Positions 3,001 through 20,660 of a DNA stretch of 41,412 nt are shown here, one piece after another. Source of the DNA: a bacterium (lineage in GTDB: Bacteria > Patescibacteriota > Minisyncoccia > Moranbacterales > UBA2206); contig JAJYGF010000013.1 of the NCBI GenBank assembly GCA_021785125.1, forward strand, positions 1-41,412, written 5' to 3'. Both the position numbers and the translations under genes were made by a program. The first letter of the stretch is position 1, and each line of letters opens with the position of its first letter. The notes below the pieces were generated by a model. That model saw only the letters and a list, made by a program, of their open reading frames with translations, did not search any database and was not told the DNA's origin.

Positions 3001-6000
3001 TACGCAAGACTCCGGCAAAATTTTTGAAGCGGATTTTAATGGTTCGACCACGGCCAATTACGCGGCCGGCTCGCCCTATCCGATCGCCAATCAAAACACG
3101 ACTTTTGATCAGAATGGAAAATTCGGCCAAGGAATCCATCTTGACGATGGAACCAAAAATCTGATCAAAAATTCCAGCTTTGAATATGCCGGAACAAACA
3201 CAAGTTCAAGCCCGCAGATCCTGAACTCTTTCATCGACGGCGCCGGCCCATGTACGGCCAATGAAAAATACACCGGCATCACGCAAAACACCGATCCGCA
3301 ATATGTTTATGACGGATCAAGTTCAGTCGAAATCAACGCTTCCGTGATCGCGTCAGGTTGCAATGCCTTAAACGTGCAGACAAGCGCGGCATTAAATTCG
3401 GATATAACAGTGAGCCCGGGTACGACATACACTCTCTCAGTTTACGCCAAAGGCGGAGCGGGGTCACTGATTGTGTATGGACGCGAATCCAACAGCGCCG
3501 GCATACCGTCCTGCAGCGCCAGTTCCATTCCGGACGGCGGCACGGCTTCGGCCGGCACATGTGTAGGCACCGGCACGCAAAGCGTAGAATATGATTTTTC
3601 CGCCCCCGGCAACACTTGGACCAGGGAAACCCTGACGTATACGACTCCTTCCAATGCGACTACGGTCACCGCCTTTGTCGGACAGCTGCATACGCAAGCC
3701 GGCACGCCCGTGTATTTCGACGCGGAACAATTTGAGAAAAATTCATCCGCGACGCCGTATGCGTCAGGCGACGGCGCGAGCGTTTTGCAATATTCCACGG
3801 CCGCCAGTAAGAACCTGATTCCACTCAACTCGGGATTTGAAAGCGGATTGACCACGCCATGGACCACCAATGGCGGGTCCAATGCGACCGTGGACACATC
3901 TTCGCCTTACGAAGGTATCAACTCCATCAAAGTTAATACTTCCACCTTGGGTAGCGGACAATTTTACGATGTGAATACAAGCATCCCTGTTCCCGTCCAG
4001 CCGGGTACTAGCTACACGTTTTCCGTATATAGCAAAGGCGGTAACGGAACTATTTATGCGGTTGAATACAAAGCGGATAACGCAACCACTACGACGTCGT
4101 ACCAAGACCATAATACTTCAGTTCCGGCCAATACCAATTGGGCCAGGACGTCCGTAACATTTATGACTCAGCCGGACGCGGCTTTCGTATATCTGTATTT
4201 GCGGCAGTTCCAAAATCCGACGCCGATCTATTGGGATGCCGTCCAATTCGAACAAGGATCGAGCGCGACCGCGTATGATTACGACACGGCCCACGCCAAT
4301 ATTAATCCTTCCCAAGGCTCGATCGAATTCTGGTTCAAGCCGGATTGGAGCGGAGGACAAATCGCGGTTGGTCCGACCGGCGCCAAACAGCTTTTTATTG
4401 CCACTAATCTCAACCCGAATACGATGTGGCAGAACGATATAAGTGTTTTCGAAAAAAATTCCACTGCTTGGGGAGGTCCGGCGTTGTTAGCGGCGATAGA
4501 TGATAGCACACAGACCAGCTCATGGTCAGCCAGTCACGAGAAAGCTATATTGATTCCGACCACCGATCAGCTCATACCGGCGGGAATTTGGCATCATGTC
4601 GTTTTCACTTATGATAGCTCGGGCAACATGAAACTGTATTTGGACGGAGACGCTTCTAAAGACACTCCATATACTGGAGATACGGGCAGTGGAATAATAA
4701 CTAGTGGCGGCGTGGGGCCAATCATGGACATTGGAAGCTATAATACTTCCAATGTAGCTGACTCTACTATCGATGATTTCCGCATATACAATCGCGTCCT
4801 TTCCGCTAATGAAATTGCGGCGCATATCAACGCAGCCAGCGAAACCGAACAAGATGCGGTCATTTCCAACCTTATCATGCACGAACCGTCCGACGCTACG
4901 GCCGTTTGGTCGCAACTGGCTTGGACGGATTCTTTGCCGACCGGCACCGGAATCAAATTCAGGACCAGAAGCGCGACTTCCCAGAGCGGCTTGGCAACCT
5001 CGACTTGGAGTCCGTATTACGCCAGTTCGACGGCCGCTATCACCAATACGCCGGATTCAAGCTGGATCGAGATCGAAGCTACGCTTTCCACGACCAATGG
5101 CACGGCCACGCCGACGCTTTCGGATTTCACTTTGACATATAATGTCAACGCGCCGCCGACCGTCACAATCAATTCGGCCGCGCAATCCCAATCCAGCGCC
5201 AGTTTCGGAAAGGTCATAGTGAGCTATGGAGTCAGCGACGTGGACGATACGAATGAAACGGTCCGGCTGTATTATCAGCCGCAACCGACGCAACTGACCG
5301 GTGCTATCTTGTCCACCGACCAGCCGCCGGAGAGCATCAATGTCAATTCAACTACCGGATTTCCAAGTTCCGGAATCCTAAGCATCGGCGGAGAAACCTT
5401 TACTTATGATTCCGTAACTGTCACCAGTTTCCATATAACGGCCAGGCATACCACGCAAAACGAGATAGCGCAAAATCACGCGATCGGGGATGAAATTTTT
5501 GTCCAGGCTCAAAGCGCCAACGTTGTTGGAGGAGGATCGCTGGCGCTAACTGCCGGATCTCCGAATTCCATTTCCAACCAGACAATCACTTGGAATGTCA
5601 AAGCCGAACTGCCGAATGTGTATTATCCGAATGCCAGTGTGAGGGTGTTGGCGGATGACAATGAATATGTGTATTCGACAAGCACGGCCGACCAAGCATT
5701 GGTCATCGACACAGCCAGTCCGACTGCCACTTCGATTGCTATAAATAGCGGAGCAGCTTACACGCATAGTTATGCAGTCGGTCTAAATTTGGCGGCAACC
5801 GATGGTTCAGCGGTGAAAGTCAAAATTTCCGATTCAGTCGATACCAATGGCAATATGATCGCGGACGGACTCAATGCCAATTCCGACCAGTGGATCAACT
5901 TCGCTTCCACGATCAGCAATTGGAACTTGCCTCAAAACGGCGATGGAAACTACACGGTCTATTACCAATTCATGGACGTGTATGGAAATACGGTCAATCA

Positions 6001-19143: not shown

Positions 19144-19416
19144 ATGCACGAAAATAATGCGACAAAAAAAGAAATAACTTTGGACGACATTGCCAGAACT
19201 CTTCAGGATGGTCTTTTGAAAATGGACAATGGCTTTGCCGGTGTAAATAAGCGGTTGGATAAAGTTGAAACCAGGCTGGATGGAGTTGAAACCAGATTGG
19301 ATAAAGTTGAAACCAGGCTGGATAGCATTGAAGCCAATCTAAACAAAAAGGTTGAAAAAGTTGACCATAACATCCTATCCTATCGCGTTGAGAAGCTGGA
19401 AAAGAAATTTGCGTAA
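19144..19416 (+). CDS. Small coiled-coil protein with heptad repeats
   Basis: The 90-residue protein has about 30 N-terminal residues containing LDDIARTLQDGLLKMDNGFA. A run of 7-residue repeats follows (RLDKVETRLDGVETRLDKVE, then TRLDSIEANLNKKVEKV), ending in a second coiled-coil segment. The DNA repeats in 21 bp units (GTTGAAACCAGGCTGGATA and variants, 19264-19330), so the array probably grew by slippage. It is a predicted parallel coiled-coil oligomer. Similar short proteins with tandem LDxVExR heptads are widespread; no function can be assigned. There is no Shine-Dalgarno; the promoter is so close that translation is probably leaderless. A good terminator follows. Confidence 0.85.
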   Translation: MHENNATKKEITLDDIARTLQDGLLKMDNGFAGVNKRLDKVETRLDGVETRLDKVETRLDSIEANLNKKVEKVDHNILSYRVEKLEKKFA

Positions 19417-19443: not shown

Positions 19444-19467
19444 AGAGGCTCACAGAGCCTCTTTTTT
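19444..19467 (+). terminator. Terminator of the coiled-coil gene
   Basis: AGAGGCT and AGCCTCT pair around a 5-base loop, followed by a run of six T. Confidence 0.9.
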
Positions 19468-19482
19468 AGTCTGAATTTCTCG

Positions 19483-19491
19483 TGATATAAT
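19483..19491 (+). promoter_or_regulatory. Extended -10 promoter of the candidate ncRNA
   Basis: TGATATAAT is identical to the extended -10 of recA. No good -35 box is seen. The expected start is near 19498. Confidence 0.6.
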
Positions 19492-19497
19492 CTTATC

Positions 19498-19778
19498 GGG
19501 ATAGCGAGAGTTGGTGTTTTTCAATCTTCGGATTGAAAACGGTATTGTGCAATAAGTCCGTCATCCGCCTTGGTGCGGTGGATTTGCCCGAAAGGGCAAA
19601 GGGTGCGGTGAAAAGCGATATTGGTTTACGGATGCACCAAGAGTTCAGCCAAGCACATTTGGAGCAAAGATGAAAGCTGAAAAGCGAACAAAGGTCGAAA
19701 CAAGCGACGAAATCTTGTTTTCCTTTCAGTAGCTTGCTGTTCCTGCAAAGAACTTCCACCAAGGGAGTTTTTTGTTTA
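19498..19778 (+). ncRNA. Candidate structured non-coding RNA of about 280 nt
   Basis: This stretch lies between an extended -10 promoter and an intrinsic terminator and holds no convincing reading frame on the plus strand. It has many helices. A 10 bp UUCG-capped hairpin spans 19516-19540, and a 7 bp GAAA-capped hairpin spans 19583-19600. GAAACAAG/CTTGTTTTC (19697-19722) sits inside CTGAAAAG/CTTTCAG. TTGGTG (19511-19516) can pair with CACCAA (19757-19762), closing the molecule. CTTGGTGC (19569-19576) can pair with GCACCAAG (19634-19641), which would form a long-range or pseudoknot contact. The terminator is AACTTCC/GGGAGTT plus T6 (19751-19775). GGTGCGGTG occurs twice, 30 bases apart. AAGTCCG, GGGTGCGGT and GGAGCAA recall RNase P RNA, but its universal core sequences are absent. 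The identity is unknown. Confidence 0.6.
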
Positions 19779-19801
19779 CAAAGACAATTTAACAAAGTGA
19801 G

Positions 19802-19833
19802 TTGACATAAGGCCATTTAGTTGCTTTTATAAT
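19802..19833 (+). promoter_or_regulatory. Promoter and leader hairpin of pyrF
   Basis: A consensus TTGACA (19802) is followed 17 bases later by TG-C-TTTTAT and 20 bases later by a perfect TATAAT (19828-19833); either may be the -10. The leader then contains AACCTCA/TGAGGTT (19836-19864), a 7 bp stem near the RNA 5' end, and a second purine-rich GGAAAGGAGG at 19887. Confidence 0.55.
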
Positions 19834-19952
19834 ATAACCTCACCTTAATAGCAACAATGAGGTTTTCTGTTATTTTAACAATTTAGGAAAGGAGGCTTTT
19901 GGAAAGTATTTCTCTCTTAATGAGCAAAATCAACCAAAGGAGGAGGTGGTCT

Positions 19953-20660
19953 ATGGATGTAAAGGACAGAATTATCGTGGCTCTGGATGTAAGCAGTCTG
20001 GACAAGGCAAAATCTCTCGTGGAAGCCCTTGCTCCGCACGTCGGATGTTTCAAGGTCGGGCTGGAATTACTCACTGCCGTGGGTGCTCCGCAGGTTGTGG
20101 AGTTCGTTCATTCTTTGGGCGGACAGGTTTTCTACGACGGCAAGTTTGACGACATCCCCAATACCATTGGCGGTGCAACCAAGGTAGTAGCAGGTCTCAA
20201 CGTCAAGATGTTCAACGTTCACGCCTCGGCAGGCATAGAAGCAATGATGTCCGCCGTGGCCAACAAGGGGCAGTCCCTTGTTCTCGCCGTTACGGTTCTG
20301 ACGTCGCTGGAAGAAAACAACGCTCATCTGATTTTCGGAAATCCGAGCAAAGCCAAGGTGCTGCAGCTGGCACGTGATGCCAAGCTAGCAGGTTGCGACG
20401 GCATCATCTGTTCGCCGCAGGAACTGGAACTTCTCGGCAAACAGAAGGAACTGGGCAGCCTGATGAAAATCACGCCTGGCGTTCGCCCCGAATGGGCATC
20501 AGCAGGAGACCAGAAAAGGATAATGACGCCTGCCGAAGCAATCAAGGCAGGAGCGACCGCTCTGGTCATCGGACGTCCCATCACCAAACCGCCGACGGAA
20601 ATCGGCACACCCGAAGATGCGGCGAAGAAAATCGCCGAAGAAATCTCGGCCGTTTTATAG
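19953..20660 (+). CDS. pyrF: Orotidine 5'-phosphate decarboxylase
   Basis: This enzyme makes UMP from OMP, the last step of de novo pyrimidine synthesis. The 235 residues match the usual length. Seen: RIIVALDV at the N-terminus, the catalytic block VFYDGKFDDIPNTIGGA (family DxKxxDI, here D-G-K-F-D-D-I), the HASAGIEAM strand, TPGVRPEWASAGDQKR and the phosphate-binding VIGRPITKP. The ATG at 19953 is chosen over earlier in-frame codons because GGAGGAGGTGG ends 4 bases before it and the fold begins right there. No other pyrimidine gene is nearby. It favours CTG/CTC leucine and TTC/GAC codons and has a much stronger ribosome site than its neighbours, pointing to transfer from another lineage. Confidence 0.94.
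   Translation: MDVKDRIIVALDVSSLDKAKSLVEALAPHVGCFKVGLELLTAVGAPQVVEFVHSLGGQVFYDGKFDDIPNTIGGATKVVAGLNVKMFNVHASAGIEAMMSAVANKGQSLVLAVTVLTSLEENNAHLIFGNPSKAKVLQLARDAKLAGCDGIICSPQELELLGKQKELGSLMKITPGVRPEWASAGDQKRIMTPAEAIKAGATALVIGRPITKPPTEIGTPEDAAKKIAEEISAVL

Follow-up and report, generated by a model that had tools for sequence, protein, structure and literature searches.

A candidate gene for a structured RNA, with promoter and terminator

We analysed a stretch of 41,412 nucleotides (nt) from a Patescibacteria genome (Minisyncoccia; Moranbacterales; UBA2206; assembly GCA_021785125.1, contig JAJYGF010000013.1), hereafter the window, in which positions 19498-19778 hold a candidate gene for a structured non-coding RNA. 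The window genome comprises 0.92 Mb in 24 contigs. Upstream of the RNA gene lies a 90-amino acid (aa) coiled-coil open reading frame (ORF; 19144-19416) with its own terminator (19444-19468). Downstream, on the same strand as the RNA gene, is an ORF at 19899-20660 which, judging by its sequence alone and with no library comparison, we take to be pyrF, the gene of orotidine-5'-phosphate decarboxylase.

The RNA gene is preceded by an extended -10 promoter, TG-A-TATAAT (TGATATAAT, 19483-19491, + strand), the place of which is conserved in homologues. Its TATAAT hexamer occupies 19486-19491, and the closing helix P1 of the RNA begins 7 nt later at 19498, the likely transcript start. The structured RNA, as delimited by its fold and by a second copy in the same genome, extends over 246 nt from the 5' strand to the 3' strand of P1 (19498-19743, + strand), and is followed by an intrinsic terminator with a stem and a T-run at about 19745-19775 (+ strand). 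A single copy would be insufficient proof that these are parts of a gene, and it is the comparison of homologues that shows that they are real. A TATAAT with at most one mismatch occurs at the fixed distance in 29 of 35 copies, as opposed to 3.5% of control windows, and 27 of the 35 also display the extended TG. A terminator after the RNA was likewise found in 29 of 35 copies. The earlier note, made from the window sequence, had proposed an RNA with its own promoter and T-run terminator at 19498-19778; both signals are there and both are conserved, as is expected of a structured non-coding RNA gene.

Conserved fold and compensatory changes

The + strand of the RNA has a predicted folding energy of -98 kcal/mol (z = -4.2), and none of 200 shuffles was equally stable, while the fold of the - strand is only mildly stable (z = -2.2). 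All helices described below lie on the + strand. The closing helix P1 is formed by a 5' strand (GGGATAGC, 19498-19505) and a 3' strand (GCTGTTCC, 19736-19743). It lies outside the covariance model of the family, and in a best-match search within 260 nt it paired at 8 of 8 positions in 31 of 37 copies. About 30 copies have the expected partner, a GCURYUCC strand immediately 5' of the terminator; in a few of the 31, the search picked another strand. P1 also displays compensatory A-U/G-C swaps (GGAGUAG/CUACUCC versus GGAAUAG/CUAUUCC).

Two long-range helices and a set of hairpins make up the core. Helix X (UUGGUGU at 19511-19517, pairing with 19634-19640) has two-sided changes at 4 of 7 pairs and is 95.8% paired, as exemplified by UUGGUG/CACCAA, UCGGUA/UACCGA, and UUGAUA/UAUCAA. 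Hairpin P3, capped by a UUCG loop (19518-19539), has two-sided changes at 7 of 8 pairs and is 98% paired, and helix Y (19540-19548 with 19615-19623) at 7 of 9 pairs, with 86.5% paired. The sub-domain P5-P6-P7 (19558-19608) consists of P5 (19558-19561 with 19605-19608), hairpin P6 (19562-19580), and the GAAA hairpin P7 (19584-19599). In 10 of 37 homologues one short hairpin stands in place of P6 and P7, a compact form with a core of 108 nt. A mini-hairpin surrounds the conserved UUACGG (19624-19633), and its closing U/C-A/G pair covaries: among 36 sequences this pair is C-G in 21, U-A in 11, G-C in one, and U-G in two. The most constant letters of the RNA are unpaired and near-invariant, namely AAUAAGUC, GGUKAAAAGC, and UUACGG. 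Four copies (L062, L115, L117, and L122) carry dispersed GC-rich palindromic repeat hairpins inserted in the UUACGG loop, with the core intact.

A variable 3' domain (19644-19735) is missing from several short members. Its helices are P8 (19644-19650 with 19675-19681; two-sided changes at 6 of 7 pairs), P9 (19682-19685 with 19732-19735; 2 of 4 pairs), and P10 (19700-19704 with 19714-19718; no two-sided changes). The minimum free energy fold of this domain disagrees with the helices supported by covariation. A pseudoknot between AAUAAG and CUUA was also tried and rejected.

Taken as a whole, the hand-drawn structure had 95.3% of cells paired in a MAFFT alignment of 20 sequences, with two-sided changes at 25 of 42 pairs, and RNAalifold applied to 20 sequences independently gave nearly the same helices. 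With 37 sequences fitted to the model, 94.9% of cells were paired and 28 of 42 core pairs displayed two-sided changes; covariation this high was reached by 0 of 500 shuffles, and slid controls were 38-46% paired. The 37-sequence alignment had been fitted to the structure, so the MAFFT alignment provides the more independent test; its result agrees. The UUCG- and GAAA-capped hairpins, the complementarity between the 5' and 3' ends, and the possible long-range helix first noticed in the window are all present and paralleled in homologues, and the covariation check suggested at that time, carried out on the 37 collected homologues, revealed strong compensatory changes. Compensatory base changes over so diverse a set are a hallmark of structured non-coding RNA genes.

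Distribution and genomic neighborhood

The window genome carries a second copy of the RNA that is 95% identical and lies in an unrelated place (G000:C4:139101-139382). The full homologue set consists of 37 copies from many Patescibacteria, gathered by DNA search of relatives and of class members, by a gapped pattern, and by a covariance model (R1) built from 20 cores. The gapped-pattern search covered about 85,000 species genomes and gave 41 matches in the genome collection, about half of which were chance matches inside genes. The true copies belonged to Liptonbacteria, Yanofskybacteria, Sungbacteria, Staskawiczbacteria, Uhrbacteria, unnamed Parcubacteria and Patescibacteria bins, and two bins labelled 'uncultured bacterium'. 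There were up to three copies per genome, this number being found in one Staskawiczbacteria genome. One copy lay on a 6.6-kb contig of a metagenome-assembled genome labelled Thermodesulfovibrionia; this contig is probably mis-binned. No copies were found in the phage, plasmid, and viral contig sets that we searched, in which the single viral pattern match (L079) was due to chance.

In searches with model R1, the RNA was recovered from 15 of 384 class genomes and from 9 of 380 phylum genomes, eight of which belong to other classes. The family of the window genome gave no match in any of its 33 other genomes that were searched, and the nearest relative from another genome (85%) belongs to a different family of the same order, which together point to transfer. 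The view of the RNA gene as a sporadic, accessory, and horizontally moving element is well supported by these genomic comparisons.

The genes around the copies were diverse, and searches with Pfam, PADLOC, and PHROGs revealed no constant protein partner among them. They included type I specificity subunits, DpnI, HNH, Fic, GIY-YIG, HD, and recombinase genes, as well as tRNA synthetase and ribosomal protein genes, with a loose leaning towards restriction and other accessory functions. The nearest upstream gene often lies 10-90 bp away and is co-oriented with the RNA in 33 of 37 copies, in part because genes in these genomes tend to share a direction. Downstream, the closest gene runs opposite to the RNA in 11 of 35 copies.

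A repeated site, single-gene cassettes, and a serine recombinase

A 23-bp motif (ATAGTGAGTRGCGNGGTGGGGTA), which we call SITE, was found within 500 bp of 9 of the 37 RNA copies, every time in the orientation of the RNA, where about 0.003 occurrences per copy are expected. Four copies have a close upstream site, and in each of them SITE begins exactly 43 nt upstream of P1. With up to three mismatches allowed, 53 of 354 genomes from the class contain the motif. The reversed pattern was absent from the matches listed in the class search and gave one match in the smaller search of RNA-bearing genomes. The 5' end of the RNA (19498-19508) bears some resemblance to the motif: the P1 5' strand GGAATAGTGAG of many members has ATAGTGAG in common with SITE, which may be due to chance or to common descent.

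Same-orientation units with a single gene each, bounded by the repeated site as integron-like cassettes are, were found in several places. In L068, four sites on the - strand (1688-1710, 2166-2188, 2613-2635, and 2854-2876) bound three one-gene intervals, one with the RNA and the others with genes for proteins of 100 and 127 aa. Short same-orientation arrays around single small genes also occur in L212, L213, L214, L215, L216, and L231; the two sites in L213 are separated by 152 bp, with a tiny ORF between them. On the - strand of L068, at positions 4981-4999 as counted on the reverse complement, the last SITE and a TATAAT are followed by an apparent truncated 5' end of the RNA (AGAAGTAGTGAGAATTGAT), possibly a relic copy. 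Genes of NYN-domain nucleases stand beside or between sites in several unrelated genomes (L216:363-983, L229:683-1264, L231:793-1362, L225, and L212:3855-4502).

The motif is also linked to a large serine recombinase, as it abuts, in antisense, the sequence of its tail (...VRTII..YIYIPDLR). An intact representative is encoded at L217:4131-5690 (- strand): a protein of 519 aa with Resolvase and Recombinase domains and, at its C-terminus, the tail (VRTIIQRQNEYIYIPDLR) that lies next to SITE elsewhere. A SITE lies at 3748-3770 (+ strand) of L217, with a 131-aa gene between it and the recombinase. The window genome encodes three large serine recombinases, one of them 3.3 kb from the second RNA copy. 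On contig G000:C21 (L226:4172-4228), two sites in tail-to-tail arrangement, separated by 11 bp, lie where a 721-aa ORF ends, about 2 kb from the third serine recombinase gene of this genome. Judging by these arrangements, SITE appears to mark the cassette boundaries in an integron-like system that is so far undescribed.

Proposed role and alternative explanations

We propose, with a probability of about 0.72, that these sequences constitute a previously undescribed family of genes for small non-coding RNAs of Patescibacteria, that the genes spread as an accessory cassette, and that their products act in trans. The comparative evidence shows a separate gene, a folded RNA, and its novelty with respect to Rfam, to the extent that sequences can, and the mobility of the RNA as a cassette is well supported on the same grounds. 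From its extended -10 promoter to its intrinsic terminator, the gene would yield a transcript of about 115-280 nt that folds so that P1 joins its two ends. Helices X and Y and four hairpins form a fixed core that exposes the near-invariant unpaired stretches, and the 3' domain can be absent. The RNA very probably spreads horizontally as a single-gene cassette, as suggested by the lack of constant neighbors, the presence of up to three copies per genome, and the occurrence of about a quarter of the copies beside SITE.

We infer that the RNA acts in trans through its rigid folded core and constant exposed loops rather than through antisense pairing or control of a neighboring gene. Such an RNA might bind a protein, as part of a ribonucleoprotein or as a decoy in the life of a mobile element within its host, a prediction that we make tentatively and to which we give somewhat less than even odds. 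It is a still more doubtful possibility that Patescibacteria have an undescribed integron-like system with the RNA among its cargo, in which a large serine recombinase would capture one-gene cassettes, with either protein or RNA genes, at SITE, and that the RNA would serve this system or the host of the cassette.

Several observations weigh against the proposal. No protein partner of the RNA emerged from the analysis. A recognizable SITE is missing near 28 of the 37 copies, and the window copy is among these, having either lost the site or never had one; hence, carriage in a cassette is not established for each copy. Finally, SITE is much more common than the RNA, so that the RNA would be only one of many passengers.

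Among other explanations, descent from a known RNA was addressed through a covariance-model scan against Rfam 15 (4227 families), which had been suggested for RNase P, transfer-messenger RNA (tmRNA), 6S, raiA, and others. Neither the window nor 16 homologues gave a match at the gathering score or at any useful E-value, and this includes 6S, raiA, OLE, GOLLD, ROOL, and HEARO. The tmRNA identity was rejected, as tRNA-like ends and a tag frame are lacking: ARAGORN detected no tRNA or tmRNA in the window, and tmRNA (RF00023) was absent by Rfam too, in agreement with the lack of a tmRNA acceptor and tag reported in the earlier note. That note had also pointed to stretches resembling RNase P RNA, and short look-alikes do exist (AAGUCC, GGCUUA, GGUGCGGU); the RNA also resembles class A RNase P RNA in its size, in being closed by a P1 helix, and in having a UUCG hairpin close to its 5' end. 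If the RNA were a strongly derived RNase P RNA or a paralogue of it, AAUAAGUCC and GGCUUACGG would be the P4 strands and GGUGCGGUKAAAAGC would correspond to the conserved GGUGCGGUAAGAGC, and a pairing of AAUAAGUCC with GGCUUA around a bulged U is indeed possible in most sequences. However, this P4-like pairing of regions I and V covaries no more than shuffles do (344 of 500 reach its level), the order of the helices is different, and RF00010 matched neither the window nor the 16 homologues at E-values up to 10. The same genome encodes a complete class A RNase P RNA elsewhere (G000:C5:114765-115145, 124.6 bits), with no match to RF00011 anywhere in it. Moreover, about 95% of the searched genomes lack the new RNA, and such an accessory distribution is not that of an essential one-copy ribozyme like RNase P. 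We regard RNase P ancestry as very improbable, and the suggestion of an undescribed class is supported, as no Rfam family matched and the helices covary. Even less credible is a real gene on the antisense strand, where a 107-aa ORF spans 19493-19816. Similar ORFs overlap the second copy and the homologue of genome G058, but no reading frame is open across all homologues (at most 10 of 37 cores), the lengths of the cores fall into every residue class modulo 3, the protein has no Pfam match, and the compensatory changes track the helices. We rejected this ORF as a gene.

Three further explanations accept the conserved structure and assign it another function. The RNA could be a cis-acting element of a neighboring gene, such as a 3' untranslated region structure, an attenuator, or a leader, in line with the frequent, close, and co-oriented upstream gene and with two G560 copies that both follow a DUF167 gene and have no clear -10. 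This is unlikely given that 29 of 35 copies have their own -10 and as many their own terminator, that neighbors vary among copies (restriction, tRNA synthetase, HNH, Fic, HD, and others), and that the downstream gene is on the opposite strand in 11 of 35. We consider equally unlikely a selfish DNA repeat, akin to a miniature inverted-repeat transposable element or a recombination site, with a fold that acts solely as single-stranded DNA and has no function as RNA. Such a repeat would account for the dispersed copies (two to three per genome), their placement in accessory regions, and their proximity to a motif linked with a recombinase. Nonetheless, G-U is frequent among the varying pairs of the transcribed strand (for example 12, 9, and 8 cells in single pairs), which favors an RNA over a DNA fold; the strong fold is restricted to the + strand, promoter and terminator are conserved, and the core survives changes as large as the loss of P6 and P7 or of the 3' domain. 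Lower still is the probability of a guide or bridge RNA that directs a recombinase or other mobile-element enzyme to SITE or to an insertion point. IS110-family bridge RNAs are structured, about 180 nt long, and tied to mobile elements, with a promoter close to the element's end; the new RNA resembles them in its structure, its tie to a mobile element, and the position of its promoter. Its fixed orientation relative to SITE, and the AUAGUGAG that its P1 5' strand (GGAAUAGUGAG) has in common with the motif, would also be in keeping with a guide. On the other hand, P1 varies (GGAGUAG, GGGAUAGC) while SITE is constant, so that the two do not covary, and base pairing between them was rejected for this reason. 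No DEDD transposase is found near the RNA, the linked enzyme is a serine recombinase, and we know of no RNA requirement in this group of enzymes. Most copies also have no recombinase nearby, and SITE cassettes are present in genomes without the RNA.

Relation to known systems

The proposed RNA family is best compared with orphan structured bacterial RNAs such as raiA, OLE, GOLLD, ROOL, and HEARO, which are independent structured RNAs, some of them found on mobile elements. It shares with them an independent structure and an unassigned function, and differs by its own core architecture, by its occurrence here solely in Patescibacteria, and by its lack of an Rfam match. The novelty is therefore in the RNA family itself, as orphan structured RNAs are already known as a general sort. 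A literature search, the scope of which did not include supplements, returned no description of such an RNA or of serine-recombinase cassettes in these bacteria.

It is rare for a complex and strongly conserved RNA fold to lack any relative in a collection of 4227 curated families, and Patescibacteria are a huge and mostly uncultured group with a little-known RNA biology. The new RNA family can be tested directly by means of model R1, the alignments, and the second copy. In addition, the link of the RNA to SITE and to a serine recombinase suggests a route by which streamlined genomes might trade small genes, RNA genes included.

The arrangement of SITE and the recombinase invites comparison with integrons, in which single-gene cassettes of one orientation are separated by a short repeated site and adjoin an integrase gene. 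SITE units are likewise single-gene units of one orientation with a short repeated site and a recombinase alongside. They differ in that the recombinase is of the serine instead of the tyrosine type, the 23-bp SITE has no attC palindrome, and the cassettes face the 3' end of the gene for the recombinase. Other serine recombinases in our data (L147, L157, L136, L135, and L105:3686-5248) end in a tRNA-like translated sequence (RRQDSNLRPSD...), as if integration into a tRNA gene replaced their own 3' end, with attP located within the recombinase gene.
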